A stretch of 64,000 nt of DNA from Phycisphaeraceae bacterium. GTDB taxonomy: Bacteria; Planctomycetota; Phycisphaerae; Phycisphaerales; Zrk34. The position numbers and the translations under genes were made by a program. Location: NCBI GenBank assembly GCA_028282805.1, contig JANQHD010000016.1, positions 1 to 64,000 on the forward strand, given 5' to 3'. Below the pieces are notes generated by a model. That model ran no database searches. It saw only the letters and a list, made by a program, of their open reading frames with translations, and was not told where the DNA came from. This document shows positions 5,110 through 25,203 of this stretch, one piece after another. Each line of letters begins with the position of its first letter. Position 1 is the first letter of the stretch.

Positions 5110-8100
5110 TTAACTGTAAACGGCGCGCCGCCGCTTGCGGCTTAGCGCCAACGCCCCGAGCCCCAACAGAAACAGGCTCGCCGGCTCGGGCACGGCCGGG
5201 CTCGTCGGCACCGACCGGCCGAAGTTCGTGCCCAGCGCGTTGAGGTCGGCCAACGACACGGCGCCGTCGTAGTTGAAGTCGCCGGTCTGCCACGTGCCGG
5301 CCAAGCCGAAGCCCGCGCCCAGCGCGTTGAGGTCGACCAGCGACACGGCGCCGTCGCCGTTGGCATCGCCGCGGTACGTCGCCATCAGCCGCACGCGGTC
5401 GACAACGGTGTCGGCGTCCGAGTCTTCGTACAGCAGCGCCAGCGCCGTGTCCGCGTCGGTCAGGTCCACGCCGGTGACCTGCGTCTGATCGAACGCGCCG
5501 CTCACGGTCGACGAACCGGTGGTCATGATCACGAACGCGTCGCCCAGCACCGGCTCGGCCAGCTGGCCGATCGCCAGCCCGCCGTCGAGCGACGCGGCGC
5601 CGCTGACCGCAACCTTGTCGAACGTCACCTCGTCCTGCAGGTCGAGCTCGAGCGTCGCGCCGGCCATCTGCGTGTAGTCGCCGTCGATGTCGAGCGTCGT
5701 GGCGACGGTTTCCACGATGACCGTGTCACCGCTCAGCAGCGACTGGTAGTTCTGGTTCACCTCGGTCACGCCGAAGGCCAGGTCGTGGTAGTAACGCCAC
5801 AGCGCAACCTCGCCGTGAAAATCGATCGGCGAGCCCAGCGAACCCGACGCCAGGCTCGGGTCGAGCACGGTCGAAGCCGCGCCGCCCACGCCCCACGCGT
5901 TGCCGCCGGCCCAGTCGTCGATGAGCAGGTTGCTCAGCGTGCCGACCAGCGCGTTGTCGACGTACAGCGAGAAGCTGTCGTTGGCCGCGCCGTCGTCGGT
6001 CGTCACCAGCGACACCACCGCGTGGTGCCAGCCGACGGCCAGCGTCGTGTTGAGGTCGAACGTGTCGGCGTCGCCGTTCACGCCCGCCTGCAGCTGGTCG
6101 CCGTCGAGCACCAGCGACACGCCGCGCGTCGCGCCGATGTCCAGCAACACCTGGTTGTTGCCCTCGGCGGTGTTCGTCACGTTGAAAACGATTTCAAACG
6201 TGCCGTCGTTTCGGCTTCGGTTCGGGCTGCCGCCCTCGAAGTACGTGTTCTGGCTGCCCGGCGACGCCGCGCCGCCGACGCTGCCGGTGTCGTACGCCGC
6301 GGTCAGCGCCTGGAACGTCGGATCGCTGACCGCGACGGTCGAAGCGTTGCCGTCGAAGTTCAGGTTGACGGTGTCGCTGCCGTTGCTTGTCGAACCCCAT
6401 GTCGCGTCACCCGACCCGTCGAGCGCCGCGTCGTACTCGAGCGCCAGGTTTGTCAGCACCGGTTGCGGGCCGGGGATGACCGTCACGTTCGACTCGGCGA
6501 ACCCGTCGCCGCCGACGCTGATGGTCGTGCCGGCTTGCGCGATCACGTTGTTGGCCTTGATCGTTTCGCTGCCGAACTCGGCCGTGCCGCCCGCGACGGT
6601 CAGGTCGCCGCCGATGTCCGTGCCGCCGCCGATCCACAGCGTGCTCGCGCCGGTCTTGGTCACGTTCCGGCCGGCCTTGAACTCGCGGACCTGCCCGGTG
6701 ACCTTGAAGTTCTGGTTGCCGTCGCCGCCGATCTCCAGGTCGTCGTACAGCTCGACGTCGACCGCCACGTCGAACGTGAAGCGGCCCGCCGTGGCGTCGG
6801 TCGCGTCCAGCGCAATCTTCGGCGCCGCGCCCGACAGGCCCTTGCTGAACATGACCGCGTTGCCGTCGATCGTGCCGGTGTGCTCCGCGCCGAGCGCCGC
6901 GGTGGCGCTGGCCAGGTTCAGGCGGTTCATCAAGAACGGCAACCCGCTGAAGTGGTTCAGGTTGTTCGTCGCGGTGTAATCGCCGGTCGCCTTGGCGCGG
7001 AAGGTGATCCGCATGTTCGCGTAGCTGTCGCGGTAGTTCATGGTGGCGTTGCCACCGCCGCCGTCGGCGTCGACGAACGCGTTGCCCGAGCCCCACGTCG
7101 CCGCGCTGAACGAGCCCTCGCGGAAGCGGAAGTGGTCGAACTGGTTGGTGTCGTCGGCCTGGTTGTCGAGGCGGGGCTTGTCCATCTGCACGTTGAAGTC
7201 GGCCATGACCTCCTTCAGCTGCGCAGCCAACGCGGGCAAGTCGTTGATGCGGTTGTTCGACTCATCCTTGTCGTTGACCACGTCGTAGAGCTGGAACGCG
7301 CCGCCCTGGTACATCAGCTTCCAGTCGCCCACGCGCACCGCCGACTGCCGGTTGTTGTGGCGGGGGATGTACAGCGCATCGTGCGGGACGCCCGTGGCCG
7401 TGCCGTTGATGTAGGGCAGCAGGTCCACGCCGTCGATCGTCTCGCCCGGCCCGAACGAACCGCCGGCCGCGGCCAGCGCGGTCGGCACCACGTCGATCGA
7501 GTGGACCGGGTCGTGGAACATCGTGCCCTCGGCCGACGGGTCCACGCCCGCGCCGGCGATGACCATCGGCACGCGCAACCCGCCTTCCCACTGCGAGCCC
7601 TTGCCGTTGCGCAGCGGGTTGTTGCTGCTGGAGTTCGGGCTCGAGTCACAGCAGTCGCCGCCGTTGTCGTTGAGGAAGATGATCAGCGTGTCGTCGAAGA
7701 TCGAGTCCGACATGTCGCCGTTGCCGTCGGGGTCTTCGAGCTTCTCGACGATCTTGCCGACGTTGCGGTCCAACGCGTACTGCATCGCCGCGTAGGTCCG
7801 GCGGTTGCCGCTGAAGCCCAGGCCCAGCGAATCGATGTGCGCCAGGTCCGACGCGGTCGCCTGCATCGGCGTGTGCGGCGCGGTGAACGAGGTGTACAAG
7901 AAGAACGGGTCGGCGTCCTGGTAGTTCGCGTCGATGTAGTCGACCGAAAGGTCGCCGAACACGTCGGTCACGTACGCCCCGCCGAACGTGCCCTCGGTGA
8001 TGGTGTCGGACGACACCCCGCCCGCGCCGTTAGACACGGTCAGACGCAACCGCTGGTCGCCGCTGGCGGTGCCGGTGAAATAACCACGCGAACCCTCGAG

Positions 8101-8619
8101 CAGGCCGTGAAACGTCTCCACCCCCTGGTGCTGCGGGCGGTTGCCGAGCGTGGCGCCGTTGGACACGTTCTTGCCGATGTGCCACTTGCCGATCGCGGCG
8201 GTGTGATAGCTCTCGCCCCGCATCCGCTCCCAGACCGTGACCTGGTCGGAGTGCAGGCCCTGCGTGGCGGTCGGCGTGCTGCCGATCGGGGCGGTCGAAC
8301 CGTTGATGTTCGAGTAGTACCCGAAGCGCCCGCTGTACTGACCGGTTGTGATCATGGCGCGAGAGACACTGCACACGGCGCCGGTGTACGCGTTGGTCAA
8401 GCTCACGCCGCGCGCCGCCAGCGCGTCGAGGTTCGGCGTGGGGATGCCCGTCGGGTTGCCCGTGAACGGGTCCATGAACCCGAAGTCACGAAAGCCCGCG
8501 TCGTCGGAGACGATCACGATCACGTTCGGGTTCTGGGCGTAGCCCCGGTTCGAGCCCAAGGCCACCGCAAGCACCGCGGCCGCACACACGCACACGCCTG
8601 ACAACTTCGTGCAGATCAT
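5110..8619 (-). CDS. Secreted sulfatase fused to LamG, dockerin and PEP-CTERM domains
   Basis: This 1169-residue protein hydrolyses sulfate esters if active. The ATG at 8619 was preferred because AAGGA lies 6 nt upstream and a signal peptide (cut after GYAQ) follows at once. The sulfatase domain spans about residues 30-500, with metal-binding DD at 39-40, the nucleophile region C83-S-V-S-R87, GKWHIGK, TAPHTP and NDNGGD. A LamG-like domain lies near 780-960, dockerin loops (GDANGDGAVSLVDLNALG, GDFNYDGAVSLADLNALG) near 1080-1140, and a PEP-CTERM tail (VPEPASLFLLGLGALALSRKRRR) ends the protein. The family's formylglycine motif is C/S-x-P/A-x-R; here valine replaces proline, so maturation is uncertain. 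The modular tail suggests surface anchoring after export. No formylglycine-generating enzyme or exosortase is in the window. Confidence 0.92.
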   Translation of the reverse strand: MICTKLSGVCVCAAAVLAVALGSNRGYAQNPNVIVIVSDDAGFRDFGFMDPFTGNPTGIPTPNLDALAARGVSLTNAYTGAVCSVSRAMITTGQYSGRFGYYSNINGSTAPIGSTPTATQGLHSDQVTVWERMRGESYHTAAIGKWHIGKNVSNGATLGNRPQHQGVETFHGLLEGSRGYFTGTASGDQRLRLTVSNGAGGVSSDTITEGTFGGAYVTDVFGDLSVDYIDANYQDADPFFLYTSFTAPHTPMQATASDLAHIDSLGLGFSGNRRTYAAMQYALDRNVGKIVEKLEDPDGNGDMSDSIFDDTLIIFLNDNGGDCCDSSPNSSSNNPLRNGKGSQWEGGLRVPMVIAGAGVDPSAEGTMFHDPVHSIDVVPTALAAAGGSFGPGETIDGVDLLPYINGTATGVPHDALYIPRHNNRQSAVRVGDWKLMYQGGAFQLYDVVNDKDESNNRINDLPALAAQLKEVMADFNVQMDKPRLDNQADDTNQFDHFRFREGSFSAATWGSGNAFVDADGGGGNATMNYRDSYANMRITFRAKATGDYTATNNLNHFSGLPFLMNRLNLASATAALGAEHTGTIDGNAVMFSKGLSGAAPKIALDATDATAGRFTFDVAVDVELYDDLEIGGDGNQNFKVTGQVREFKAGRNVTKTGASTLWIGGGTDIGGDLTVAGGTAEFGSETIKANNVIAQAGTTISVGGDGFAESNVTVIPGPQPVLTNLALEYDAALDGSGDATWGSTSNGSDTVNLNFDGNASTVAVSDPTFQALTAAYDTGSVGGAASPGSQNTYFEGGSPNRSRNDGTFEIVFNVTNTAEGNNQVLLDIGATRGVSLVLDGDQLQAGVNGDADTFDLNTTLAVGWHHAVVSLVTTDDGAANDSFSLYVDNALVGTLSNLLIDDWAGGNAWGVGGAASTVLDPSLASGSLGSPIDFHGEVALWRYYHDLAFGVTEVNQNYQSLLSGDTVIVETVATTLDIDGDYTQMAGATLELDLQDEVTFDKVAVSGAASLDGGLAIGQLAEPVLGDAFVIMTTGSSTVSGAFDQTQVTGVDLTDADTALALLYEDSDADTVVDRVRLMATYRGDANGDGAVSLVDLNALGAGFGLAGTWQTGDFNYDGAVSLADLNALGTNFGRSVPTSPAVPEPASLFLLGLGALALSRKRRRAVYS

Positions 8620-8725
8620 CGCCCGTCCTTGTTCAAAGCCCTGTCCGCGCCAAACGGTTTGGCGCCAAAAGCGTCGGTCGGCTCTCACCGGCCGACGCCG
8701 GGGGTTCTCTTGTAGCGCAGCGCAC

Positions 8726-11510: not shown

Positions 11511-12060
11511 GTCATTTTTTCCGAATTGCGCAATTTGTGTGGAGCTTTTGGCATTTTCCATCGCGACGGGCACGTGCGTATCGGCCGATACCCCTTTTTC
11601 GGGCGTCGCAAGCCTGCGAGCCGGCCAGCGCGACCGTTCGGTTCGCGACCGCCTCGACGACGCTGCGCGATGCACGCGCGAGCGGAGTGAGGGTGATCAA
11701 CACAAAGCCCGGGCAATATTTCTGCGGCGCACGCGCGGTTCTCCCGGTCTTGCCGCCTTCGTGTATCCGTTGTCAGCGCAAGCGCATCGACACGCCGGCG
11801 TCACGCCACCGCGCACGCGGTGTGGTGGAACCCGTTGAAACCCATGCGCGTGTGAGCAAGCACTTTTAAGCAACTCTTGATCGCAGGCAAACCGTAACAA
11901 AATCCACCGGCGTTAGTTTTTCTGCGTTCGCGGCGAGTTGCTGCGGACCCTGCAAAAGATGGGCTCGGAGCCCACCAGACGTTGACGCTGTTCCCCGTGT
12001 CGGTCCCGCGCTTACAGGGATCGACCATGATCAGGTCGCCACACTAATCGAGCACAAACA
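11511..12060. other. Long intergenic stretch between divergent transcription units
   Basis: No convincing gene is present. Open frames here are short, arginine-rich and lack ribosome sites. There is a poly-T run at 11514-11520 just upstream of the minus-strand promoter. The promoter for the plus-strand unit beginning at 12247 presumably lies here, but I cannot choose a -35/-10 pair with confidence. Confidence 0.5.
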
Positions 12061-12246
12061 AAGGAGGAGGAATGAGCTAACGGGAACCCCATAAAGCAGC
12101 CCTCAATCGGTTCAATCGCTTTTGGGGCAGGGGCTGCCGTGAGGAGAAAGGCTCCATCGAAGTCCGCCACGCATGACACGAGGTCAAGCCGTGCGGAGCC
12201 ACCACGAACAACCATCATCGTATAAGAAACGTGTAAGGGGAAATCT
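12061..12246 (+). promoter_or_regulatory. Structured 5' leader with a two-codon ORF and perfect Shine-Dalgarno
   Basis: AAGGAGGAGG (12061-12070) is followed at once by ATG AGC TAA (12072-12080), a complete two-codon reading frame with an ideal ribosome site. Downstream, GCAGCCC (12096-12102) can pair with GGGCTGC (12131-12137), or the shorter hairpin GGCAG-GGG-CTGCC (12125-12137) can form. GGCTCC (12150-12155) can pair with GGAGCC (12195-12200), enclosing an inner CCGC/GCGG stem. The true gene start with its own AAGGGG site comes only at 12247. It does not match any riboswitch consensus I can recall. A cis-regulatory RNA or leader-peptide function is speculative. Confidence 0.4.
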
Positions 12247-13272
12247 ATGAAAATCAAGACATCCATCGCCACGGCGGTCACGCTGCTCGCCGTGGGCGTG
12301 CACGCGGCGAACGCCGAGGTCGCGGGTTACAACGGCACCGCAGTGCCCACGGGTTCGGACGCTTTCGTTTCCGTGCCGTTCACCATCGAGTGCGAAGCCT
12401 CGCTGACGGTCAACGCCGTCGTCGGGGGTTCCGGCGTCACGGTGAACGAAACGCTGGTCGACAGCAAGTACAACACCGGCCTCTACTACGTGCGTGTGAC
12501 CAGCGGCGTCGCCGACGGAAAGTGGAGCACCATCACCAGCAACACCACCGGCGAACTGGTGCTGACCGACACCTCGATCCTGACCGGCATCGTCAACGGC
12601 GACAGCCTGAAGGTCTACCCGCACCAGACGTTGGAGACCGTGTTCTTCGACGGCCTGGAAGGTACCAGCTACCTCGCTTCGACGAGCACTTTCTTCCGTA
12701 ACGGCACGGAGGTTCTGGTGCCCTCGAGCGACCCCGGCACCGACAAGGGCGCCGCGGCGATCTACTACTACTTCGACGGCCAATGGCGTGACGCCAACGT
12801 GTTCGGCGGCGGCGACGCGGACGACGTGATCCTCGCGCCCCAGTCGCAGGTCATCGTCCGCAACACCAGCTCGACCGCGACGCTGAACGTCTACACATTC
12901 GGCGATGTGGAGACCCACACCCAGGTCGCCGCGATCCCGGTGCTTGGCGTGGCCAACGACGTGGCGGCGGCGACCGGTCAACCGATCGCGCGCACGCTCA
13001 GCCAGCTGCAACTGGGCGGCAGCGCGGCGTTCGCTTCGTCGAGCGCGGTCGACGCGGTCGACGGCGACCAGCTGTTGGTCTTTGACAACGCCGCCAGCGG
13101 CATCAACAAGGGCCCCAGCGCCACCTACTACTACGCCGACGGTCAGTGGCTCAACGTGGTTGGCGACGCCAACTCAGACGCCGTCGAACTGCCCGCCGGT
13201 GCGGCGGTGCTCATCCGTAAGGTCAGCGGCGCCGTCAGCACGGTCAGCTGGAAGCAGTCTTCGCCCTTCTGA
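12247..13272 (+). CDS. TIGR02597-like secreted protein of unknown function
   Basis: The 341-residue product has a signal peptide cut after HAANA (near residue 23) and an all-beta, threonine- and valine-rich body. Two similar halves each contain a YYY-x-DGQW segment (IYYYFDGQW near 175 and TYYYADGQW near 290) followed by a PP/Q-x-x-V-I-R-like strand, as if two copies of one domain were joined. This layout matches the TIGR02597 family, which has no known biochemical function and which I know from Verrucomicrobia and relatives, often beside TonB receptors. AAGGGG precedes the ATG by 6 nt. It heads the plus-strand set with the dockerin/PEP-CTERM and beta-helix proteins. Confidence 0.75.
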   Translation: MKIKTSIATAVTLLAVGVHAANAEVAGYNGTAVPTGSDAFVSVPFTIECEASLTVNAVVGGSGVTVNETLVDSKYNTGLYYVRVTSGVADGKWSTITSNTTGELVLTDTSILTGIVNGDSLKVYPHQTLETVFFDGLEGTSYLASTSTFFRNGTEVLVPSSDPGTDKGAAAIYYYFDGQWRDANVFGGGDADDVILAPQSQVIVRNTSSTATLNVYTFGDVETHTQVAAIPVLGVANDVAAATGQPIARTLSQLQLGGSAAFASSSAVDAVDGDQLLVFDNAASGINKGPSATYYYADGQWLNVVGDANSDAVELPAGAAVLIRKVSGAVSTVSWKQSSPF

Positions 13273-13302
13273 GTTTCGGCGAAGGCATCGTTGTGAAATC
13301 CC

Positions 13303-13318
13303 GCGTGACCCGTCACGC
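13303..13318 (+). other. Intergenic hairpin between the first two genes of the plus-strand unit
   Basis: GCGTGAC (13303-13309) and GTCACGC (13312-13318) form a perfect inverted repeat 18 bp before the next start codon. No T-run follows, so it is more likely an mRNA-stabilising or attenuating hairpin than a terminator. Confidence 0.4.
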
Positions 13319-13335
13319 ACAAATGGAAAGATAAG

Positions 13336-14337
13336 ATGAAAAAAGCAATCATTACTATCGCGGCCCTGGCACTGTTCCCGGCCGTCTCGCAGGCGAGCAT
13401 TACGCTCAACGTGATTGCCGGCATCCTGAGCGACTCCGGCGGCACGCCGCTGCCGGCGAACAGCACGCTGACGATCATCGAGGACACCAACGCCAACGGC
13501 TTCGGTGACCTGACCAACCCCGCCAGCCTGCTCGGCGACGCGGCGGACAACCTCGTCCTGCACGCGGCGACGAACGGCTTGGGCGGCATCCAGAGCGTCT
13601 TCAACATCGACTTCGCCGGCCTGACCCAGGGCAACCCCCTGTTGATGGTCTGGTACAACAAGGCCTTCAACGCCAGCGACGCGGCCAACGGTGTCGGCGT
13701 CGGCGTTGAGTTCAACACGTACCGCAACGACAACCCGGTCGGCCCCTCCGCCGGCTTCTTCGTGCCCGCCGACGGCGACACGATCACGCTCGCGTTCGTC
13801 ACCGCCTCCGCCGGCAACCCCGGCACGCCCGACACCGACGGCCGCACGACCCTGCTGACCGTCGCCGGCCTGCCCGGTGACTTCGACAGCGACGGCGACG
13901 AGGACGACGTGGACATCGACCAGTACATCGGCAAGCTCGGCACCGCCGTGCCCCCGACCGATGACAAGTTCGACCTGATCGACGACGACACGATCGATAT
14001 CAACGACTACAACGAGTACGCCAACAACCGCCTCGAGTGGGCCAACGCCGGCAACGGCCAGAGCGGCAACGGCACCTTGACCGGTGACTTCAACCGTGAC
14101 GGCACCGTGACGCTCGTCGACCTCAACACGCTCGGCACGAACTTCGGTGCGTCCGGCGGCTGGGCCTCGGGCGACACCAACGGCGACGGCACCGTCACGC
14201 TCGTCGACCTCAACGCGCTGGGCTCGAACTTTGGCCAGAACGTGTTCGCCGCCCCTTCGGCGCCCAACGTCCCCGAGCCGGCCAGCCTGGTGCTGCTCGG
14301 CCTCGGCGGCCTGGCGCTGGCGCGTCGTCGCAAGTGA
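13336..14337 (+). CDS. Dockerin-repeat PEP-CTERM surface protein
   Basis: This 333-residue protein has a signal peptide (cut after AVSQA, near residue 20) and a roughly 150-residue beta-rich domain that I do not recognise. Two calcium-binding regions follow: an unusual acidic pair (GDFDSDGDEDDVDIDQY and an IDDDTIDINDYNEY loop, about 176-225) and a standard dockerin pair (GDFNRDGTVTLVDLNTLG, GDTNGDGTVTLVDLNALG, about 252-300). The C-terminus is a PEP-CTERM sorting signal, VPEPASLVLLGLGGLALARRRK. GGAAAG precedes the ATG. It lies between the TIGR02597-like and beta-helix genes, suggesting a shared surface role; no cohesin partner is visible. Confidence 0.87.
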   Translation: MKKAIITIAALALFPAVSQASITLNVIAGILSDSGGTPLPANSTLTIIEDTNANGFGDLTNPASLLGDAADNLVLHAATNGLGGIQSVFNIDFAGLTQGNPLLMVWYNKAFNASDAANGVGVGVEFNTYRNDNPVGPSAGFFVPADGDTITLAFVTASAGNPGTPDTDGRTTLLTVAGLPGDFDSDGDEDDVDIDQYIGKLGTAVPPTDDKFDLIDDDTIDINDYNEYANNRLEWANAGNGQSGNGTLTGDFNRDGTVTLVDLNTLGTNFGASGGWASGDTNGDGTVTLVDLNALGSNFGQNVFAAPSAPNVPEPASLVLLGLGGLALARRRK

Positions 14338-14415
14338 ACGAAAACGGAAACTAAACTCAACGTTAACCGTATACGCATTAAAACTAACAAAACACAAATA
14401 CAGGAATTGTCTACC

Positions 14416-16224
14416 ATGAAACTTATGAAGAAGATCGCATTGCTGGGTATGGCGATGGGCATCACCACCGGCGCGGCCAACGCGGCCGTGGTCAACGTGC
14501 CCGGCGGTGACATCACCACCTCGCAAACCTGGACCGCCGACAACACCTACAACCTGCAGGGGCAGGTCTACATCACCAACGGCGCGACGCTGACCATCGA
14601 GGCCGGCACGCTCGTCGCCTCCACCCCGACCGCCAACGGCTCGGGCAGCCTCGCCGTCACGCAGGGCTCGAAGATCTTCGTGTGCGGCACGGAGGCCGAC
14701 CCGGTCATCATGACCTCCACCAACGACGACTTTAGCACCTGGCGCGCGGCGGCCAACGAGTGGGGCAACCTGACCATCATGGGCAAGGCCTACATCTCCC
14801 GCTCCTACGACACCAGCAACACCGCCACCTTCGGCAACAACATCGCGGCGATGGAAGGCCTGGTCGCCTCCAACCCCGCCGACCCCACCTCCGACCCCAA
14901 CGTGATCTACGGCGGCACCGATGACGACGACGACTCCGGCAGCATCTCGTACCTCTCGCTCCGCTACGGCGGTCGCGTGGTCGGCCTGACCAACGAGCTC
15001 AACGGCCTGTCGCTCGGCGGCATCGGTCGCGCCACCGACATCTGCTTCGTCGAGATCATGAACAACGTCGACGACGGCATCGAGATCTGGGGCGGCACCG
15101 TCGAGATCAAGAACGCCTCGATCTGGAACATCGGCGACGACAGCTTCGACGTCGACCAGGGTTGGCGCGGCAAGGCCCAGAACATCTTCATCGTTCAGGG
15201 CTACAGCCTGCTGGCCAAGCAGGGCTCGGGCGTCGGCGACAACTGCTTCGAGACCGACGGCGCCGAAGATTCGGACGCCCAGCCCGTAACCACCGCCGTG
15301 GTGTACAACGCCACCGTGGTCGGCAACCCGCTCGACGGCGACAACGGCACCGCCTGGCGCGACAACGCTTCGCTCCAGTACCGCAACAGCATCTTCATGG
15401 ACCTCGGCGACAAGCTGATCAAGAACGACGGCGACGACGGCGATGGCGCTTCGGGCTACGGCTTCAACGGCACGCTCGACTTCGCCACCCGCTGGCAGAC
15501 CGCGGCCGGCACCCACTCGACCGTCAACGCCGGCGGCCTGACCCCCGCTCAACTCGACACGCTCTACGCTGCACAGGTCGACGGATTCCTCAGCGAGATC
15601 AGCGGCAGCGTGTTCTTCCGTAACCTCAAGAGCGGCGCCTACTCCGTGTCCGACACCGTCGGCCCGAACCCCGGCAGCGGCAACACCGTCACCGTCGCCG
15701 GTGGCAGCAACGCCGCCCTCGACAACATCGTCGCTCCGTTCGTGCTCGCCACGCCTGACGCGAACATGCCGATCGTGTCGCTGACCCGCGGCGCGCCCGT
15801 GGACAACGGCTTGGCCGGCTCCGACCAGAAGGACATCCTGCCCGTCGCGACCATCGACCCCCGCGCAGCCAACGCCGCGACCTCGCTGGTCTCCGCTTCA
15901 CCCGCGCCGCTCGACGGTTTCTTCAGCCCTCAGAACTACCGCGGCGCGTTCAGCCCGAAGGTCAACTGGCTGCTCGGCTGGTCCGCCGCCGATGAGTACG
16001 GCTTCCTCGCCAGCCCCGCCAACCCCGCCGACCCGACGGTCACGCTGAAGCTGACCGCCACCACCTGCTTCCAGACGCAGGTCGGTTGCACCTACGAGGT
16101 CCAGTGCCTCGAAGGCAAGAAGTGGGTCACCGTGGCGGTCATCGAAGGTGACGGCGCCGTGGTCAACTACACCGACCTCGACGGCCTGACCGCCGGCAAG
16201 ATTTACCGCGCGGTCGTCCAGTAA
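14416..16224 (+). CDS. Secreted right-handed beta-helix-like surface protein
   Basis: The 602-residue product starts at the ATG 11 nt after AGGA; an upstream in-frame TTG at 14407 is less likely. A signal peptide ends at AANA. The sequence then has short repeating beta-strand turns (ITNGATLTIEAGT, GTLV-x-S, SAWxNI-like) typical of parallel beta-helix proteins. A GGTDDDDDSG acidic loop lies near 160, and a separate C-terminal module of about 70 residues follows. I know similar proteins beside TonB-dependent receptors in marine Bacteroidota and Verrucomicrobia-type loci, but no enzymatic motif is visible. A strong terminator follows. It could be a surface receptor accessory or a type II secretion substrate; this is inference. 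Confidence 0.8.
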   Translation: MKLMKKIALLGMAMGITTGAANAAVVNVPGGDITTSQTWTADNTYNLQGQVYITNGATLTIEAGTLVASTPTANGSGSLAVTQGSKIFVCGTEADPVIMTSTNDDFSTWRAAANEWGNLTIMGKAYISRSYDTSNTATFGNNIAAMEGLVASNPADPTSDPNVIYGGTDDDDDSGSISYLSLRYGGRVVGLTNELNGLSLGGIGRATDICFVEIMNNVDDGIEIWGGTVEIKNASIWNIGDDSFDVDQGWRGKAQNIFIVQGYSLLAKQGSGVGDNCFETDGAEDSDAQPVTTAVVYNATVVGNPLDGDNGTAWRDNASLQYRNSIFMDLGDKLIKNDGDDGDGASGYGFNGTLDFATRWQTAAGTHSTVNAGGLTPAQLDTLYAAQVDGFLSEISGSVFFRNLKSGAYSVSDTVGPNPGSGNTVTVAGGSNAALDNIVAPFVLATPDANMPIVSLTRGAPVDNGLAGSDQKDILPVATIDPRAANAATSLVSASPAPLDGFFSPQNYRGAFSPKVNWLLGWSAADEYGFLASPANPADPTVTLKLTATTCFQTQVGCTYEVQCLEGKKWVTVAVIEGDGAVVNYTDLDGLTAGKIYRAVVQ

Positions 16225-16275
16225 GTTCGCCACGCCGCTCGCGGCGTAGAACAACCTGGTTTGAGACATCACGAT

Positions 16276-16306
16276 CTGATGGCGGGGCACGGTGCCCCGC
16301 CATCAG
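16276..16306 (+). terminator. Rho-independent terminator after the beta-helix gene
   Basis: CTGATGGCGGGGCA (16276-16289) pairs perfectly with TGCCCCGCCATCAG (16293-16306) around a three-base loop. GTCTATTTTAA follows. The 14-bp GC-rich stem is the strongest terminator seen in the window and separates the surface-protein unit from the receptor and secretion genes. Confidence 0.8.
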
Positions 16307-16339
16307 GTCTATTTTAACCCAAAGAAGTATGAGCGTGGG

Positions 16340-17590
16340 ATGATGCAAGTACGTTCGAGTATCCACCTCCTGACCGGCGTGTTGCTCTTCTTGACCGTCG
16401 CCGGTTGCAAAGAGACCAACGGCAACCCCGCCGCGGAAGGCAAGTCCGGCGCGCCGGACACGCTGGTCGACCGGCCGATCGAGCCCTATCGGGCCGAGTT
16501 GGTTGATGTCGCGTTCCAGGCGGCTTCCGAGATGCCGGTCCACCCGTTTATCAAGGACCGGTCGCGGTGGCAGGAGAAGGTGGTTGGGGTTTGCCTCGAA
16601 CTGGATCAGCCCAAGCTTGCGTTGAAGTACGCCGACCGGATCAAGAACTGGCGGCGGGGCGCGGCTTACGCCGACATCGCCTACCACCTGGCCAAGCACG
16701 GCATGAAGGAGGACTTGGCGGTTTACCTCGAACGCGCCGAGCAGATCGCCAACGCGGTAAACCTCGAACAATGGCGCAGCGATCGTATTAAGATCAAGGT
16801 GGCCAGGGTCCATACCCTGCGGGGGCAGATGCTAAGAGCGGAAGAGATCGAGAAAGGCATTCAAGAGGGTGGGGAGACGGGCAAGCTCGCCAGCGAACGC
16901 GCCGCCGCCGACGGTGAGCGGTCGTTCGAGCAAGCCGTCAAAGAGCTGGATGCGCTGGTCGCCTCGGGCCAGTTCGACCAGATCCGCAACGCACAACTCG
17001 GGTACATCGCGCTCTACGACCGCCATTACGGCGAGCGCGAACGCCGGGACACGGTCGAGCAGAAGGCCCGCGACTCGTGGCACAAGATGGCGGTCTCGAT
17101 CAAGATCGACCTGCTGTTGAGCCTGGCGCATTGCTCGATCGCTCACGAAGACCACGCCAAGGCGCTGGGGCTGATCGACGAAGCGCAGGGCCTGAAAGAC
17201 GGCGCCGAATGGATGTTGCTCGACCGCATCCCCGTGACGGCCCGGCTGGCCGAGGCGCGGTTCGGTGCGGGGGACAAGGCGCGCGCGGTGTCGGATGCCG
17301 AAGTGGCCTTGGCGTCGTTCAAGTCCGACCACGAGAAGATCAGGAACTTCGAGCGCGCCGATGCGTTGATCCCGCTGGCCGAGGCTTTCGCCGCGATGGG
17401 CGAGTCGACGGAGGCGCTTGCCACCTACCGCCTGGCGGTGGAGCAGGGGACCATCAACCCCAACGCGCGCACGCGGGCTGAAGACCTGGCTGCGAATTGC
17501 CTGTCGATGGCGGTGCACGGCGTCGAGCCCGACGCCGAGTTGTGGGCGCTGATCCGGCAAATCAGAGAGGGATTGGTTGCACCGTGGTAA
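16340..17590 (+). CDS. TPR-like lipoprotein upstream of the TonB receptor
   Basis: A lipoprotein signal peptide with lipobox TVAGC (Cys near residue 25) is followed by about 390 residues of alpha-helical repeats. These are typical of tetratricopeptide-like solenoids (for example ALKYADRIKNWRRGAAYADIAYHLAKHG). The ATG pair at 16340/16343 was chosen because the lipoprotein signal begins there; an earlier GTG lies inside the terminator stem. The stop codon overlaps the GTG start of the TonB-dependent receptor, so the two are probably translationally coupled. It may assist the receptor in the periplasm; the exact role is unknown. Confidence 0.82.
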   Translation: MMQVRSSIHLLTGVLLFLTVAGCKETNGNPAAEGKSGAPDTLVDRPIEPYRAELVDVAFQAASEMPVHPFIKDRSRWQEKVVGVCLELDQPKLALKYADRIKNWRRGAAYADIAYHLAKHGMKEDLAVYLERAEQIANAVNLEQWRSDRIKIKVARVHTLRGQMLRAEEIEKGIQEGGETGKLASERAAADGERSFEQAVKELDALVASGQFDQIRNAQLGYIALYDRHYGERERRDTVEQKARDSWHKMAVSIKIDLLLSLAHCSIAHEDHAKALGLIDEAQGLKDGAEWMLLDRIPVTARLAEARFGAGDKARAVSDAEVALASFKSDHEKIRNFERADALIPLAEAFAAMGESTEALATYRLAVEQGTINPNARTRAEDLAANCLSMAVHGVEPDAELWALIRQIREGLVAPW

Positions 17591-20500
17591 GACGGCGTCC
17601 GTTCGTTTGGATTGCTTTGGCCGCCTTGTTGTTCGTGTACGCCCCGGCATCCGCCCAACCGATGGGCTCGATCCGAGGGGTCGTGATCGACAAGGATTTT
17701 GACGTGCCGTTGTCCGGCGCGACGGTGTTGATCGTGGAAACGGGTCAGAAGGTCACCACGACCGATCAGGGCAACTACAGCTTCGGCGAGGTGCCCGCCG
17801 GCAACTACACGCTGGTGTTCTCGAAGGACGGTTACACGCGGCAGGTGAAGTCCGAGGTCGTGGTGTCGCCGGGCCAGCTGACGGACCTGAACATCGACAT
17901 GCTCGGCGACTTCACCGACATGGAAGAGTTCGTCGTCGAGGACGTGCGGTTCGACGGGACCTCGGAAGAGGCGTTGCAGCAGATCCGCATCGAGAGCCCG
18001 GCGTTGCTGGACTCGATCGGCGCCGACATGATGAGCAAGGCCGGCGCCAGCGACGCGGCCGGGGCTCTGCGGCTGGTGGCGGGGGCGACGGTGCAGGACG
18101 GCAAGTTCGCCGTGGTGCGCGGCCTGCCCGACCGCTACGTCAACTCGCAGTTGAACGGCGTGCGCCTGCCGACCTCCGACGAGGACAAACGCGCGGTGCA
18201 GCTGGACCAGTTTCCCTCGGCGGTGATCGAGAGCGTGCGCGTGACCAAGACGTTCACGCCCGACCAGCAGGGCGACGCGTCCGGCGGCGCGGTCAACGTC
18301 GTGCTCAAGGGCATCCCCGAAGAGAACGTCCTCAAGTTCAGCAGCCAGGTCAGCTACAACACGCAGGTGCGCAACCGCGACGACTTCCTCACGTACAAGG
18401 GCGGGGGGGTGAACTTCTGGGGCAACGACCGGGGCAAGCGCGACATCCAGTTCCGGAACATCGGCGACGACTGGACGGGTGCGGTGGGTGTCAGCCGGGA
18501 CCAGGCGCCGGTGGACTACAAGTTCTCGCTCGCGGCGGGCGGCAAGGAAGAGTTCGCCAACGGGATCACCGTGGGTGGTTTCGCGAGCTTCTTCTACGAG
18601 CGCGACAGCTCGTTTTACGACAACGGCATCGACGACGCGCGCTGGGTGGAGAACCCCGGCGACCCGATGACGCCGAAGTTCGAGCAGGGCACGCCGGGGC
18701 AGGGGGAGTTTGTGACCTCGCTGTTCGACGTGACCAAGGGCGTCGAGGAGGTGCGTTGGGGTGGGTTGGGGACGTTGGGGGTCGAGAGCGAGAACCACTC
18801 GCTGAACCTGATCTACCTGTACACGCGGATCGCGGAGGACGAGGCGGTGCTCGCCGAGGACACGCGCGGCAAGCGGTTCTACTTCCCCGGTTACGACCCG
18901 GACGGCGACCCGTTCACCGACCCGCTGCTGACCGACAACGACCGCGGCGCGGCGCCGTACCTGCGCACCGAGACGCTGAAATACACCGAGCGCACCACCG
19001 AGAGCCTTCAGCTCAACGGCGAGCACAAGCTGCCCGACCTGGACCTCGGCGTGGAAGACGTGATCAAGTTCCGCCAGCCCGTGCTGGATTGGACGCTGGC
19101 GCGGAGCGAGGCGCACCTGTACGAGCCGGACAAACGCCAGTTCGGTTCGACGTGGGCGCCGGAGACGTTGGACCCGGGCTTCCCGCCGTTCGTGCCGCCG
19201 TCGATCACGCCGCGGGGTCACGGCCCGTTCAAGCCCGCCGAGGTGTTTACGCTCGGCAACCTGCAACGCACGTGGAAGGACATCCGCGAAGACAGCAAGC
19301 AGTACTTCATGAACCTCAAGTTCCCGTTCGAGCAGTGGAGCGGCGACGAGGGTTACGTGAAGGTCGGCTTCTTCCACGACGAGGTCACCCGCAAGTACGA
19401 TCAGGAATCGTTCAGCAACTTCAACGACAACACGGGCGGGCCGAACACGCCGTTCGAGGAGCTGTGGAGCGATGTCTTCCCCGACGAGACGCACCCGGTG
19501 ACCGACGGGCCGCCGTTCGTGGACGTGGATTACACGGGCGAGCAAGATTTGAAGGCTTTTTATTGGATGACGGACCTGCCGGTGACCTCGCGGTTCAAGC
19601 TGATCGGCGGGATGCGTTTCGAGAACACCGAGCTGAGCATCATCAACACGCCCGAGGCGGACGCGACGTGGTTCCCGCCGGGCGCGTTGACGGTGACGGC
19701 GCTGAACCCGGGCGACGCGGACGTGGCGTTCGAGCAGCGGGACGTGCTGCCCTCGATCGGTTTCGTGTACGACCCGACCGAGAAGATCACGTTCCGCGGC
19801 GCGTACAGCGAGACCGTGGCGCGGCAGACGTTCAAGGAGCTGTCGCCGATCCAGCAGCAGGAGTTCCTGGGCGGCGACGTGTTCATCGGCAACCCGAACC
19901 TGCAGATGAGCGCGTTGAAGAATTACGACCTTCGGTTGGACTATCGGCCGTACGAGGGCGGGCTGGTCTCGGTGTCGTACTTCAAGAAGGACGTCACCGA
20001 CCCGATCGAGTACGTGCAACGGGTGGCGACGTTCACCTACACGACGCCGTTGAACTTCCCCGAGGGTGAGATCGAGGGCTGGGAGTTCGAGGTGCGCCAG
20101 GACCTGGGGCACTTCTGGGCGGAGTTGCAGGGGCTGTCGGTCGGCGCGAACGCGACGCTGATCGACTCGCAGGTCACGCTGCCGGCCACCGAAGCGGCGA
20201 TGTTCTCCGCGGCGAACGTGCTCGCCCCGCAGACCACGCGCGATATGACCAACGCGCCCGAGCACCTGTACAACCTGTACCTGACCTACGAGTCGGAAGA
20301 GACCGGCACGCAGGTCGGCCTGTTCTACACGGTGCGCGGCGACACGCTCGTGGCGGGGGCGGGCGTTTCTGACGGCAACTTCGTGCCCAGCGTCTACGAA
20401 AAAGAGTTCGACACGCTCAACCTCAGCATCACGCAGAAGATCGGCGAGCACGTCAAGGTCAAGTTCCAGGCCAAGAACCTGACCGACCCCGACATCCAGG

Positions 20501-20601
20501 AGGTCTACCGCTCCCGCTTCATCGGCGACGACGTGCTGAAGACCTCGTTTACCAAGGGCATCGATTTTTCGCTGAGCATCAGCGCTGAATTTACGTTTTA
20601 A
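17584..20601 (+). CDS. TonB-dependent outer-membrane receptor
   Basis: The 1005-residue product starts at a GTG overlapping the preceding stop codon, with GAGAGGGA about 10 nt upstream. A signal peptide ends at APASAQ. Residues 28-110 form a carboxypeptidase-regulatory-like beta-sandwich (GSIRGVVIDKDFDVPLSGATV), and about 125-270 form the plug (GASDAAGALRLVAGATV, VVRGLPDRYVNSQLNG, GGAVNVVLKG). The remainder is a 22-strand-type barrel ending in the beta-signal SISAEFTF. Such receptors import large or scarce ligands with proton-motive energy from ExbB/ExbD/TonB, all of which are encoded just downstream (21478-25198). The adjacent beta-helix and TIGR02597-like proteins could bind the same ligand, which is not identifiable. 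Confidence 0.95.
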   Translation: MVRRRPFVWIALAALLFVYAPASAQPMGSIRGVVIDKDFDVPLSGATVLIVETGQKVTTTDQGNYSFGEVPAGNYTLVFSKDGYTRQVKSEVVVSPGQLTDLNIDMLGDFTDMEEFVVEDVRFDGTSEEALQQIRIESPALLDSIGADMMSKAGASDAAGALRLVAGATVQDGKFAVVRGLPDRYVNSQLNGVRLPTSDEDKRAVQLDQFPSAVIESVRVTKTFTPDQQGDASGGAVNVVLKGIPEENVLKFSSQVSYNTQVRNRDDFLTYKGGGVNFWGNDRGKRDIQFRNIGDDWTGAVGVSRDQAPVDYKFSLAAGGKEEFANGITVGGFASFFYERDSSFYDNGIDDARWVENPGDPMTPKFEQGTPGQGEFVTSLFDVTKGVEEVRWGGLGTLGVESENHSLNLIYLYTRIAEDEAVLAEDTRGKRFYFPGYDPDGDPFTDPLLTDNDRGAAPYLRTETLKYTERTTESLQLNGEHKLPDLDLGVEDVIKFRQPVLDWTLARSEAHLYEPDKRQFGSTWAPETLDPGFPPFVPPSITPRGHGPFKPAEVFTLGNLQRTWKDIREDSKQYFMNLKFPFEQWSGDEGYVKVGFFHDEVTRKYDQESFSNFNDNTGGPNTPFEELWSDVFPDETHPVTDGPPFVDVDYTGEQDLKAFYWMTDLPVTSRFKLIGGMRFENTELSIINTPEADATWFPPGALTVTALNPGDADVAFEQRDVLPSIGFVYDPTEKITFRGAYSETVARQTFKELSPIQQQEFLGGDVFIGNPNLQMSALKNYDLRLDYRPYEGGLVSVSYFKKDVTDPIEYVQRVATFTYTTPLNFPEGEIEGWEFEVRQDLGHFWAELQGLSVGANATLIDSQVTLPATEAAMFSAANVLAPQTTRDMTNAPEHLYNLYLTYESEETGTQVGLFYTVRGDTLVAGAGVSDGNFVPSVYEKEFDTLNLSITQKIGEHVKVKFQAKNLTDPDIQEVYRSRFIGDDVLKTSFTKGIDFSLSISAEFTF

Positions 20602-20640
20602 AACAATCCATTAACCAAGGCTTAACCAGACCGAGTTCAA

Positions 20641-21462
20641 ATGCACACCATGGATAACAGACCCATGAATGGACGGAAGCGTAGGCCTTGGCTGAACGGT
20701 GGTTTGGCGGCGGTCGCCTTGGCGGTGCTGGCGCTGTCGGCCGCCACGCATGGCCAGGAGCAAGACGCCGCCGGGATCGACGACACCCGCGCCGCGCTGG
20801 AGCAGTGGGTGGAAACCCGCCGGATCATCTCCAAGGAGAAGCGTGACTGGGCGCTGGGCAAGGAGGTCCTCAACGATCGCATCGAGATCGTCGAAACCGA
20901 AGTTAAATCTTTGCGCGACAAGATCAACACCGCCGAGCAGAGCATCGCCGAAGCCGAGGGCAAGCGTGCCGCGCTCGAACAGGACAACAACAAGCTGAAA
21001 CAGGCCTCCAGCTCGCTGGGCAGCACGATCCTCGCCTTGGAAAAGCGCACCAAGGAGCTGCTGCCCCGGCTACCCGAGCCGGTCCGCCTGCGCGTCAAGC
21101 CCCTCAGCCAGCGGATCCCCGAGAACCCGCAGGAGACCAAGCAATCCCTGGCCGAGCGGTTCCAGAACGTCGTCGGCGTCCTCAACGAGGTCAACAAGTT
21201 CAACAGCCAGATCACGATCAACACCGAGATCCGCGAGTTGCCCAACGGGACCTCGTCGGAGGTGACCACGCTCTACGTCGGCCTCGGCCACGCCTACTAC
21301 GCCAACGCCAACGCGACCCTCGCCGGCATCGGCACCGCCACGGCGTCGGGCTGGGTGTGGACGCCCGCCAACGAACACGCGGAGAAGATCGCCAAGGCCA
21401 TCGCCATCTGGAACAACGACGAGATCGCCGAGTACGTGCAGCTCTCGGTTGAAGTGGAATAA
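20641..21462 (+). CDS. DUF3450 family periplasmic coiled-coil protein of a TonB2-type system
   Basis: This 273-residue protein has an N-terminal signal segment (LAAVALAVLALSAATHG, about 22-38) and a long coiled coil (about 50-140, rich in Glu, Lys and Ala). A conserved C-terminal part contains TLYVGLGHAYYAN and ASGWVWTPAN. These features match DUF3450, whose genes stand directly before ttpC-exbB-exbD-tonB clusters in Vibrio-type TonB2 systems. It lies 16 bp before the TtpC-like gene. A role in coupling TonB energy to the envelope is likely but not proven for the family. Alternative starts at 20650 and 20665 are possible. Confidence 0.85.
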   Translation: MHTMDNRPMNGRKRRPWLNGGLAAVALAVLALSAATHGQEQDAAGIDDTRAALEQWVETRRIISKEKRDWALGKEVLNDRIEIVETEVKSLRDKINTAEQSIAEAEGKRAALEQDNNKLKQASSSLGSTILALEKRTKELLPRLPEPVRLRVKPLSQRIPENPQETKQSLAERFQNVVGVLNEVNKFNSQITINTEIRELPNGTSSEVTTLYVGLGHAYYANANATLAGIGTATASGWVWTPANEHAEKIAKAIAIWNNDEIAEYVQLSVEVE

Positions 21463-21477: not shown

Positions 21478-22974
21478 ATGAAGAACATCTACCAAGCCAG
21501 CGTCTGTCTGTTCGCCCTCGCTTTCGCGGCCGCCGCCCAGGCGCAAAAGCCTGAGCAAACGCCCGAAGCGACCCCGCCCGCGGGAGCCGCCGAACCTGCG
21601 CAGGCCGAGAAGAAGGAAGAAACCTTCAGCGACGCCGCCAGCGACGTGCAGCAGCAACTGAAGGACAGCCTCGCGGAGCTGGACGCCCTGCGTGAGCAGA
21701 TCGCCGCCGAGAAGATCCCGTTGAGCGTCAAGCTCAGCGAGCAGGAGAACGAGCTCGTCGACGTGCGTGCCGAGTTCCAGCGGAAGACGCGCGTGCTCGA
21801 CACGCGGACGCTGGACCTGAGCAACCTGCGCACGGAGATCCGGGCGCGTGAGAAGGAAGCGAAGTATTTGTCGAACCTGCTGGGCGACTTTGCCCGCAAC
21901 TTCGAGAAAGACCTGCACATCGCCGAACTCCAGCGGTACCGCGACACGATCGACGCGGCGCGCCTCGCCCCGGAAAACAGCAACCTCTCCGAGCAGGAGG
22001 TCTACGAGGTCCAGGCGGCGCTGGTCACCGCTTCGCTCGAACGCCTGCACGACGCCCTCGGCGGTACGAGCTACAAGGGCAACGCCGTCGACCCGACCGG
22101 CATCATCCAGGAAGACGGCACGTTCGTGCTCGTCGGTCCCGCGGCCCTGTTCCGGTCGCCCGACGGCAAGCACGTGGGTATCGCCGATCAACGCCCCAAC
22201 TCGCTCGACCCCGTGATCGTCCCGTTCCGCAACCCCGCCGACGCCAAGGCGGCTTCGCAGCTCGTCGCGTCCGGCAAGGGCGCGTTCCCCCTCGACCCGA
22301 CGCTCGGCAATGCGCAGGTGATCGAGGCCACCCAGGAAACCTTCTTCGAGCACGTGAAGAAGGGCGGCCCCGTCATGGTGCCGATCTTCGCGCTCGCCGG
22401 CGCAGCCCTGCTCGTGGCGATCTACAAGTGGTTCCGCCTCGCGTTCCTGCGGCCGCCGTCGGCCAAGCGGCTCGGCGACCTGCTCGACGCCGTGGCCAAG
22501 CACGACCAGCCCGCCGCCGCCAAGAAGGCCAAGGCCATCCGCGGCCCGATCGGCGCCATGCTCGCCGTGGGCGTCGAGCACCTCAAGGAACCGCGCGAGC
22601 TGATCGAAGAGGTCATGTATGAGAAGGTCCTCTCGACCCGCCTCAAGCTGCAGGGCATGCTGCCGTTCATCGCCATCTGCGCCGCGTCGGCGCCGCTGCT
22701 CGGCCTGCTGGGCACCGTGACCGGCATCATCAACACCTTCAAGCTCATCACCCTGTTCGGGTCGAGCGACGTCAAGTCCCTCTCCGGCGGCATCTCCGAG
22801 GCGCTGATCACGACCAAGTTCGGCTTGGTCGTCGCGATCCCCTCGCTGTTGATGCACGCGTTCCTCGCCCGCAAGGCGAAGGGCGTGGTGGACGAGATGG
22901 AGAAAGCCGCGGTCGCCTTCACCAACCAGGTGATGAAGACCCCGTACCAGCAACCGACCGACAAGGCCGCCTGA
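21478..22974 (+). CDS. TtpC-like MotA/TolQ/ExbB protein with periplasmic coiled-coil extension
   Basis: The 498-residue protein has a signal peptide (AQAQ, about 1-22) and a periplasmic coiled coil at about 45-145. A first membrane helix lies near 300-325 (VMVPIFALAGAALLVAIYKW). The MotA/TolQ/ExbB core follows, with helices near 395-425 (MLPFIAICAASAPLLGLLGT) and 440-470 (ALITTKFGLVVAIPSLLMHAF). Ordinary ExbB is about 240 residues; the long N-terminal extension is the hallmark of TtpC, an extra energising component of Vibrio TonB2 systems. It probably joins the ExbB/ExbD motor and contacts TonB across the periplasm. The cluster order agrees with this reading. Confidence 0.9.
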   Translation: MKNIYQASVCLFALAFAAAAQAQKPEQTPEATPPAGAAEPAQAEKKEETFSDAASDVQQQLKDSLAELDALREQIAAEKIPLSVKLSEQENELVDVRAEFQRKTRVLDTRTLDLSNLRTEIRAREKEAKYLSNLLGDFARNFEKDLHIAELQRYRDTIDAARLAPENSNLSEQEVYEVQAALVTASLERLHDALGGTSYKGNAVDPTGIIQEDGTFVLVGPAALFRSPDGKHVGIADQRPNSLDPVIVPFRNPADAKAASQLVASGKGAFPLDPTLGNAQVIEATQETFFEHVKKGGPVMVPIFALAGAALLVAIYKWFRLAFLRPPSAKRLGDLLDAVAKHDQPAAAKKAKAIRGPIGAMLAVGVEHLKEPRELIEEVMYEKVLSTRLKLQGMLPFIAICAASAPLLGLLGTVTGIINTFKLITLFGSSDVKSLSGGISEALITTKFGLVVAIPSLLMHAFLARKAKGVVDEMEKAAVAFTNQVMKTPYQQPTDKAA

Positions 22975-23005: not shown

Positions 23006-23641
23006 ATGGACGCGATGGTTGAACAGTTGGGCGCGGTTTGGCGGCAAGCCGTTTCGATCTGGCTCTCCGGCGGGTGGGCCATGATCGCGATCGCGATCAA
23101 CGCGGTCTTCCTGTTCGCGATCGGCACCCGGGTCATGCTGCGGCTGCGCGAGAAGGGCTTCGGCAAGGTCTCCGAGAAGCGGTGGCGGCGCTGGATCGAC
23201 CACCCCGAGCAGCGCAGGGGGCCGATCGGCCAGATGCTCGACTTCGTGACCGGCGCCCACTCGCTGCACGAGCTCGGCGTGATGTTCGAGGAGCTGCGCG
23301 CGACCCAGATCGTGCCCTTCCAGCGCGACCTGAAGGTGATGAAGATCTGCGTCAGCGCCGCGCCCCTGTTCGGGCTGCTGGGCACGGTCACCGGGATGCT
23401 CGTGACCTTCGGCGCGATGGCGACCGGCACCGGCGGCGACAAGACCATGAACGAGATCGCCGGCGGCATCTCCGAGGCCTTGATCACGACCGAGACGGGG
23501 CTGGTCGTGGCGATCCCCGGGCTGTTCTTCCAGTACCAGATGACCCGGCAGCTCGAACGCTACAAGGCCTTCCTCGCGCACCTGCAGACGGTGTGCACGC
23601 AGGACCTGTACCGCAAGATGAACCGCAAGAAGGCGGCGTAA
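23006..23641 (+). CDS. exbB: ExbB proton-channel subunit
   Basis: This 211-residue MotA/TolQ/ExbB protein has a first helix at about 22-42 (GGWAMIAIAINAVFLFAIGT) and a cytoplasmic loop. Two further helices bear the family core (ISAAPLFGLLGTVTGMLVTF-like and ALITTETGLVVAIPGLFFQY). With ExbD it forms the inner-membrane motor that uses proton flow to move TonB. It follows the TtpC-like gene by 31 bp and precedes two exbD genes, so the cluster encodes two ExbB-like and two ExbD subunits. Confidence 0.94.
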   Translation: MDAMVEQLGAVWRQAVSIWLSGGWAMIAIAINAVFLFAIGTRVMLRLREKGFGKVSEKRWRRWIDHPEQRRGPIGQMLDFVTGAHSLHELGVMFEELRATQIVPFQRDLKVMKICVSAAPLFGLLGTVTGMLVTFGAMATGTGGDKTMNEIAGGISEALITTETGLVVAIPGLFFQYQMTRQLERYKAFLAHLQTVCTQDLYRKMNRKKAA

Positions 23642-25198: not shown

Positions 25199-25203
25199 AT
25201 GCT

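Follow-up and report, generated by a model that had tools for sequence, protein, structure and literature searches.

What do three secreted-type proteins do beside a TonB-dependent receptor (TBDR), and do they belong together? The question is raised by a 64,000-nucleotide stretch of DNA, hereafter the window, from a Phycisphaeraceae bacterium of the phylum Planctomycetota (GenBank assembly GCA_028282805.1, contig JANQHD010000016.1, positions 1 to 64,000). Three open reading frames (ORFs) on the plus strand, with a third-codon-position G+C of 0.89-0.93, encode a TIGR02597 family protein (12247-13272), a protein with a dockerin-like stretch and a PEP-CTERM end that we name MID (13336-14337), and a predicted right-handed beta-helix exoprotein that we name BHX (14416-16224). 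A preliminary description, made from the sequence alone, had placed these ORFs correctly and proposed that they form one unrecognized surface-binding set that recurs with TonB receptors and is comparable in role to SusD-like partners. Here, we report that BHX is the conserved core of a receptor cluster and that TIGR02597 and MID are a gene pair of their own. The gene content, homology, synteny, predicted fold, gene pairing, and hairpin conservation described below are firm. The reading that we favor, at a probability of roughly 0.55, is that the locus encodes an ElpS-like, probably phosphorus-scavenging TonB system with a Ttp-type energizer, a neighboring type II secretion system (T2SS), and a recruited TIGR02597-MID surface pair.

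Conservation of BHX and its gene context

BHX is a product of 602 residues that starts at the ATG at 14416 (a TTG lies further upstream, at 14407) and carries a signal peptide without a lipobox. NCBIfam gives no match, and Pfam gives only Kelch, far below the cut-off (16.7 versus 50). A scan of species genomes provided 79 loci, taken from the best 80 of 110 stretches encoding a relative, in which BHX is 47-60% identical to that of the window over the best segment (43-63% in set A1). The records are titled Planctomycetota, Verrucomicrobia, Omnitrophota, Sumerlaeota, and others, and the relative is called a "hypothetical protein" in most of the annotated records that were opened.

A single gene lies between BHX and the TBDR. 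This gene, TPRa (16340-17590, plus strand), encodes a putative TPR-like lipoprotein with a VAGCKE lipobox recognized by eye; its own Pfam and NCBIfam matches are all below cut-off, and homologues occur in 74 of the 79 BHX loci. The TBDR (17497-20601, plus strand) consists of CarboxypepD_reg, Plug, and barrel regions (PF13620, PF07715, and PF00593), and its ORF begins at a TTG, the real start probably being further in. TBDR genes are present in 66/79 loci; in each of the other 13, the sequence ends after less than 5.3 kb on one side or both. A DUF3450 gene directly follows TPRa in L060 and L069, which have no TBDR in the sequence present, and in L054 and L072, where the TBDR is placed beyond TtpD. 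For 35 loci, the sequence extends 9 kb or more to each side of BHX, and every one of these contains TPRa, TBDR, DUF3450, TtpC, and TonB.

An even draw of 294 genomes from the phylum of the window was also surveyed, with 294 bits or more counted as a strong BHX match. Such a match was found in 38 genomes. DUF3450 scored over cut-off in 36/38 of these versus 28/256 of the other genomes (Fisher p 3e-26, uncorrected for ancestry), and the two genes share a contig, 3.5-7.0 kb apart, in 34/38. Among the remaining four genomes, G770 and G643 have the two genes on different contigs, G640 has a weak DUF3450 match, and none was found in G742. In G719, G748, and G775, where the BHX match is weaker, a DUF3450 match is likewise within 1 kb of it. 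These counts reject random co-occurrence of BHX with the TonB receptor system, and BHX is firmly the conserved core of the cluster. The repeated receptor neighborhood claimed for all three proteins is strongly supported for BHX.

Outside the core, the only neighbors that recur in at least five loci are a Sel1-like TPR group (assigned by eye; 14 loci) and response regulators. Two Verrucomicrobia contigs encode similar secreted-looking proteins between phoB and BHX or TIGR02597 (L031:8536-9189 and L023:2303-2986); no Pfam family was found for the former. The host genome (G000) encodes four more TonB receptors with a Plug domain, on contigs C37, C52, C28, and C47, in open frames of ~660-720 residues.

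Distant relatives of BHX and the ElpS family

A tblastn search of plasmids with BHX found 21 records, of which ten loci were opened. A TBDR adjoins the BHX relative in nine of the ten, which belong to Pseudomonadota and Bacteroidota; the Marinobacter locus is the exception. The order in Alteromonas (L143) is phoB-phoR-pstS-oxygenase-BHX-TBDR-DUF3450-TtpC-ExbB-ExbD, energizer genes lie 5′ of BHX-TBDR in three Pseudoalteromonas loci, and the order is BHX-TBDR-T2SS in the alphaproteobacteria Indioceanicola (L147) and Sphingomonas (L148). A profile built from 47 BHX proteins scored 112-519 bits against nine distant relatives, including 279 bits for Indioceanicola and 188 bits (E 1.1e-58) for Sphingomonas, and 69 bits against the Bacteroides relative.

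The published gene order in Caulobacter crescentus, CC0170/CC0171/gspC-N, is likewise protein-TBDR-T2SS (PMC2996285; this and the other papers given by PMC number are cited from excerpts of their text). Since the L147 and L148 relatives keep this order, we name the family of BHX ElpS-like. ElpS (CC0170) is described as a surface lipoprotein that is produced under phosphate starvation, is released in a T2SS-dependent manner, and is linked to more alkaline phosphatase activity, and homologues were noted in Shewanella, Bacteroides, Xanthomonas, and others (PMC2996285). Flavobacterium johnsoniae FI, FII, and FIII are 31-36% identical to ElpS; FI and FII adjoin TonB-dependent transporters, FII together with phoBR, FI is the most abundant exoprotein in low phosphate, and FI and FII were modeled on a polygalacturonase (PMC8115612). 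Judged from sequence, BHX is a distant homologue of this family with published members, and the preliminary term "unrecognized" fits insofar as BHX has no Pfam or NCBIfam model, but not with regard to these homologues.

Like ElpS in C. crescentus, BHX in the window is a secreted-type protein encoded near a TonB receptor and T2SS components. The differences are that a Cys-bearing leader starts eight of the nine distant relatives (the Marinobacter frame is without one), whereas the signal peptide of the window BHX has no Cys, and that the window cluster adds a TPR-like lipoprotein, its own TtpB/C-ExbB/D-TonB-TtpD set, and the TIGR02597-MID pair. Because of the missing N-terminal lipobox, we use "ElpS-like" rather than ElpS. 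The Flavobacterium proteins and their PUS loci, which we liken to BHX by description only, share the position beside transporters (FI and FII) and the polygalacturonase-type, i.e., beta-helix, model; unlike BHX, they are Bacteroidota lipoproteins, and the excerpts of PMC8115612 name no dedicated TonB energizer.

No description of this system was found among the listed matches of literature searches, which covered open-licence papers alone. The excerpts of PMC12872454 and PMC7029141 hold nothing on the ElpS protein. PMC3422733 counts TonB receptors in Planctomycetes and Verrucomicrobia and finds TonB in four of the Planctomycete genomes that it covers; its excerpts name no partner protein.

Predicted fold and acidic cluster of BHX

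Structure prediction had been proposed as a check on the ligand-binding idea. The AlphaFold2 model of BHX has a predicted local distance difference test (pLDDT) score of 86.7 and a predicted template modeling (pTM) score of 0.86. Foldseek returned no match to this model at E 0.001 or better. VIA-align gave a best Z of 20.5 (root-mean-square deviation 3.6, 269 aligned) to a tailspike and Z of 16-20 to alginate epimerases, pectate lyases, polygalacturonases, and NosD. On the basis of the model, BHX is a right-handed beta-helix. A search of BHX, TIGR02597, and MID against solved structures by sequence gave nothing at a convincing E-value.

SusD has a helical TPR-type fold. BHX is modeled as a beta-helix and matches no SusD family in Pfam or NCBIfam, so it is not a member of that group. 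The proposed SusD-like role nevertheless stands as a fair analogy, in that a surface partner is encoded beside a TonB receptor, as in SusC/SusD.

Six acidic residues (D219, D220, E223, D241, D242, and D245) are identical in 15/15 aligned modules from nine distant proteins and may mark an active site or a binding site for a metal or ligand. Their spacing of ~22 residues resembles, we presume, that of the GH28 aspartates. BHX could thus be an extracellular enzyme, such as a polysaccharide lyase, a hydrolase, or a phosphatase helper, with the receptor importing the fragments, rather than a binding partner. The fold that the model shares with GH28 and polysaccharide lyase beta-helix enzymes, the invariant acids, the alkaline phosphatase activity tied to ElpS (PMC2996285), and the polygalacturonase-based model of FI/FII (PMC8115612) all speak for an enzyme. 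Against it, no enzyme family of Pfam or NCBIfam scores over cut-off, so there is no family-level sequence match, beta-helices can bind without cutting, and in gammaproteobacterial relatives the module is repeated in tandem: three of these proteins, as well as the one from Indioceanicola, contain two or three copies of the beta-helix module (L142, L143, L147, and L151). We regard a purely enzymatic BHX as a tentative alternative, and for the capture mechanism of our preferred reading, the odds are about even.

The dedicated energizer and the neighboring T2SS

The genes 3′ of the TBDR, all on the plus strand, encode a DUF3450 protein of TtpB type (20641-21462; PF11932, 100 bits), a long ExbB of TtpC type (21478-22974; MotA_ExbB, 100.6 bits), ExbB (23006-23641; PF01618, 77 bits), two ExbD proteins (23673-24080 and 24107-24526; PF02472, 77 and 91 bits), TonB (24533-25198; PF03544, 61.5 bits), and a TPR protein assigned as TtpD type by TPR families and by a position like that of TtpD2 (25117-26631). 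This is the order of the Vibrio TonB2 system, TtpB2-TtpC2-ExbB2-ExbD2-TonB2-TtpD2, in which TtpB2 is a DUF3450 protein (PMC6957404). Component types and order are the same; the differences are that the Vibrio system takes up siderophores, while the set of the window is tied to one receptor and BHX and has two ExbD genes. Two ExbD-type matches were also seen in L017/L030, L079, and L082, and no other listed cluster showed more than one.

Genes for GspD, GspE, and GspF (PF00263, PF00437, and PF00482) follow at 26739-31870 on the plus strand, the T2SS neighborhood known from the ElpS family. More ORFs 3′ of these are putative pseudopilin-like genes. T2SS genes also stand beside the BHX cluster in L015-L018. 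Adjacency to a T2SS was considered as a general trait of BHX clusters and rejected: among 20 further genomes, searched over as much as 12 kb upstream and downstream of BHX (two had less than 350 bases upstream, and G054 was covered on one side only), it was found in G054 alone.

Phosphate genes near BHX clusters

In Candidatus Anammoxibacter (L096), a PstS-type PBP and PhoU are encoded directly 5′ of BHX. Two Verrucomicrobia loci have, upstream of BHX, a PBP, a porin, polyphosphate kinase (Ppk), and a PhoB-type regulator (L031) or Ppx-GppA and a PhoB-type regulator (L023). In genome G863 (L203), Porin_O_P, PstS (257 bits, cut-off 206.6), and PstC (192 bits, cut-off 196.45) follow TtpD. L019 and L025 encode PhoB-type regulators that match PhoB models best, though at scores below cut-off. 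Together with Alteromonas (L143), a specific Pho or Pst gene is near BHX, within the sequence present, in six of 97 loci (one contig being counted twice) and in G863, which is one of the 20 further genomes; this makes seven in all. The matches of L058, L077, L082, L086, L145, L208, and L219 to phoB/phoR queries are general two-component proteins and were not counted. An ACR3-type arsenite transporter and an ArsC-type protein (both by eye), followed by the PhoB-type regulator, were seen upstream of BHX at L025:3-2481.

Alternatively, the system could import an iron-siderophore, cobalamin, or carbohydrate, the nearby phosphate genes being incidental. The known role of TtpB/C/D systems in Vibrio is in iron and siderophore uptake (PMC6957404), the best named model for the receptor is TIGR01782 (245 bits, below the cut-off of 310), a LacI-type regulator and a sulfatase-like protein (by eye) lie upstream on the other strand, and most BHX loci have no Pho gene nearby. 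On the other hand, several distantly related BHX clusters are next to genes for PstS/PBP, PhoU, a PhoB-type regulator, Ppk, Ppx, or a porin, and of the homologues that have been studied, the nearest are tied to phosphate starvation. We consider such a substrate unlikely. On the genomic evidence, a phosphorus-related ligand seems likelier than a polysaccharide, and a phosphorus role of the BHX cluster is reasonably probable; a phosphate role in the window itself would follow by extension.

Several observations weigh against an ElpS-like phosphorus scavenger. The Pho and Pst counts above are low, and no chance rate was computed for them; response regulators of the PhoB type are common. Family scans found no pst or pho gene in the window, and the sole PstS match of the host genome sits on another contig. 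The E. coli Pho-box pattern TGTCA-N6-TGTCA is not enriched on the gene strand in 86 regions upstream of BHX or TIGR02597: eight or more of its ten positions matched in 8/86 regions versus 8.5% of shuffles (14/86 on the other strand, without its own shuffle control). The co-occurrence tests are uncorrected for shared ancestry, the homology of BHX to ElpS is seen through L147 and L148 rather than by comparison with CC0170 itself, the window BHX has no lipobox, and the closest known energizers serve iron. Lastly, ElpS reaches the C. crescentus surface without the T2SS (PMC2996285).

TIGR02597 and MID form a gene pair

The first protein is a full member of TIGR02597 (177.4 bits, cut-off 50), a family named in no paper of the open-licence literature searched. 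It was described as two copies of a YYY-x-DGQW domain, and the internal duplication is real: the local score is 103, whereas 1000 shuffles reach no more than 57, and comparison of profiles gives a probability of 98.7%. Its AlphaFold2 model is confident (pLDDT 91.5). Residues 48-126 match a gene transfer agent tail protein with Z 10.1 over 75 residues, followed by phage tail tips; the fold list covers mainly this part, and residues 127-341 were barely tested. The model thus places a small barrel resembling phage-tail-type proteins N-terminal to the repeats, from which we do not read a function.

MID has a conserved N-terminal domain (74 bits, E 6.6e-21 with Z set to 10000, for a profile built without the window) and a PEP-CTERM end over cut-off (PF07589, 32 bits versus 20.7; TIGR02595, 24.9 bits). 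Its dockerin match is just below the Pfam cut-off (20.9 versus 22.9), and MID does not qualify as a cellulosomal dockerin protein. The dockerin/PEP-CTERM protein of the window is therefore MID with a dockerin-like insert. A sulfatase-like ORF (by eye) at 5110-8688 on the minus strand also has a dockerin-like stretch and a PEP-CTERM-like end resembling those of MID.

Outside the window, 31 TIGR02597 ORFs were compared (L017 and L030 look like one contig). A same-strand ORF directly follows TIGR02597 in 31/31, with a crude signal-peptide pattern in 28, and 27/31 of these ORFs have a PEP-CTERM-like end versus 8/298 other ORFs of the same loci. The MID N-domain profile has 19 matches elsewhere, every one a TIGR02597 neighbor (16 of them are in the profile). 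It leaves 12/31 neighbors unmatched, which weighs against our reading and limits homology to the 19; the sequence varies more than the position and the sorting signal do.

TIGR02597 is over cut-off in six of nine family genomes and six of 397 class genomes, nine genomes together, and in all nine it stands just 5′ of BHX with one gene between (two sub-cut-off class matches are left out). The order TIGR02597-one gene-BHX recurs in L023 (Verrucomicrobiota), L021 (Omnitrophota), and L028 (another Planctomycetota contig). Both observations argue against the view that the two proteins are unrelated to uptake, i.e., a PEP-CTERM surface pair with an envelope or biofilm role of its own that merely adjoins the cluster in one clade. 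That view draws on the rarity of TIGR02597 among BHX loci (4/79) and on the Verrucomicrobiota. TIGR02597 matches occur in 26/194 genomes of the phylum of G404 (a Pontiellaceae), taken as Verrucomicrobiota, 13 of them over cut-off. Besides G402 (L023), 20 regions were fetched (12 over cut-off; five further genomes with matches are left out). An iterated profile finds the TIGR02597 gene in 19 of the 20 (L152-L170; L171 is without it). In each of the 19 a same-strand ORF, in most cases with a PEP-CTERM-like end, follows directly, and none of them has BHX or a TBDR in up to 19.5 kb, L152 having a weak TonB match. G402, with TIGR02597-MID-BHX, is the Verrucomicrobiota exception, which leaves 19/20 regions with a TIGR02597 gene in which the pair is on its own.

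Taken together, TIGR02597 and MID are an independent two-gene surface module, separate from BHX, and the proposal of one three-protein set is not upheld. A pair without any part in uptake is a serious contender, at somewhat less than even odds; under our preferred reading, the pair would have been recruited to the cluster in this clade.

A conserved hairpin 3′ of BHX

The three genes had been described as one unit closed by a strong terminator. The hairpin is real and strong: it spans 16273-16309 on the plus strand, with the stem CTGATGGC...GCCATCAG, and has 17 pairs, 11 of them G-C, followed by TATTTT. It does not close the unit. It is a conserved feature inside a larger same-strand cluster, between BHX and TPRa. 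Taken as a class, terminator-like sites occur in the stretch at about the chance rate (six found versus 5.7 expected), and this one has by far the longest stem among them.

The best hairpin within 150 nt 3′ of each gene was scored, with 30 or more taken as strong. A strong hairpin follows BHX in 72/83 loci versus 2/83 dinucleotide shuffles; for other genes, the counts are 7/76 (TPRa), 4/66 (TBDR), 0/65 (DUF3450), 1/59 (TonB), and 9/34 (TtpD). Five of nine distant relatives also reach a score of 30 or more after BHX, without a control. Only 38/73 strong BHX hairpins have a T-run (four or more T in the next nine bases), so not all are plain terminators. The stem motif YTGRYGGY, picked after viewing the hairpins and thus a post hoc count, is present in 21/85 BHX hairpins (20/84 without the doubled contig) versus 3/296 control hairpins.

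The stem of the window was also seen 3′ of BHX in L015, L016, L018, L023, L028, L031, L098, and L099, which span several phyla, and the hairpin may act in regulation. The exact palindrome CTGATGGC-N6-26-GCCATCAG occurs in 29/294 genomes and follows BHX only in the window and G007; in this draw, the exact form is therefore clade-limited. Rfam gave nothing at the hairpin in 12000-21000, and two sub-threshold matches, P10 (20 bits) and IRES_Bip (15 bits), both at E 0.37, were judged to be chance. The likely purpose of the hairpin is to raise BHX over the machinery genes by attenuation.

Proposed mechanism and implications

Under our preferred reading, BHX would be secreted and act at the cell surface with the nearby large TBDR, where it would most likely capture, or trim and present, a phosphorus-bearing anionic substrate for import. 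Import would be powered by the dedicated TtpB-TtpC-ExbB-ExbD-TonB-TtpD complex from the same cluster. The neighboring T2SS would probably export or release surface proteins, as for ElpS, and the hairpin 3′ of BHX would permit an excess of exoprotein over receptor and energizer. The TIGR02597-MID pair would have been recruited upstream, with MID kept at the envelope through exosortase sorting and TIGR02597 binding MID as an adaptor or scaffold.

A broader picture is more doubtful. In it, the BHX family would be one cross-phylum class of TonB-dependent phosphorus scavengers with a self-contained Ttp unit in Planctomycetota and relatives, the hairpin would set its expression, with a stem sequence kept across phyla as a regulatory site rather than a simple terminator, and TIGR02597-MID would be a pluggable, exosortase-anchored docking module.

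The system is of a known kind, an ElpS-like TonB system; what is new is the dedicated Ttp energizer and, in this clade, the T2SS and the recruited TIGR02597-MID pair. The pairing of TIGR02597 with a mostly PEP-CTERM gene is described from this analysis, and the hairpin is a testable handle on how more exoprotein than receptor is made from a single cluster. If the preferred reading is true, TIGR02597 would gain a gene partner, and surface phosphorus capture would be assigned to a family mostly annotated as "hypothetical protein". It would also provide a reason why many Planctomycetota pair a large TonB receptor with a TonB complex of its own, and it would bear on phyla that are important to ocean and anammox nutrient cycles.

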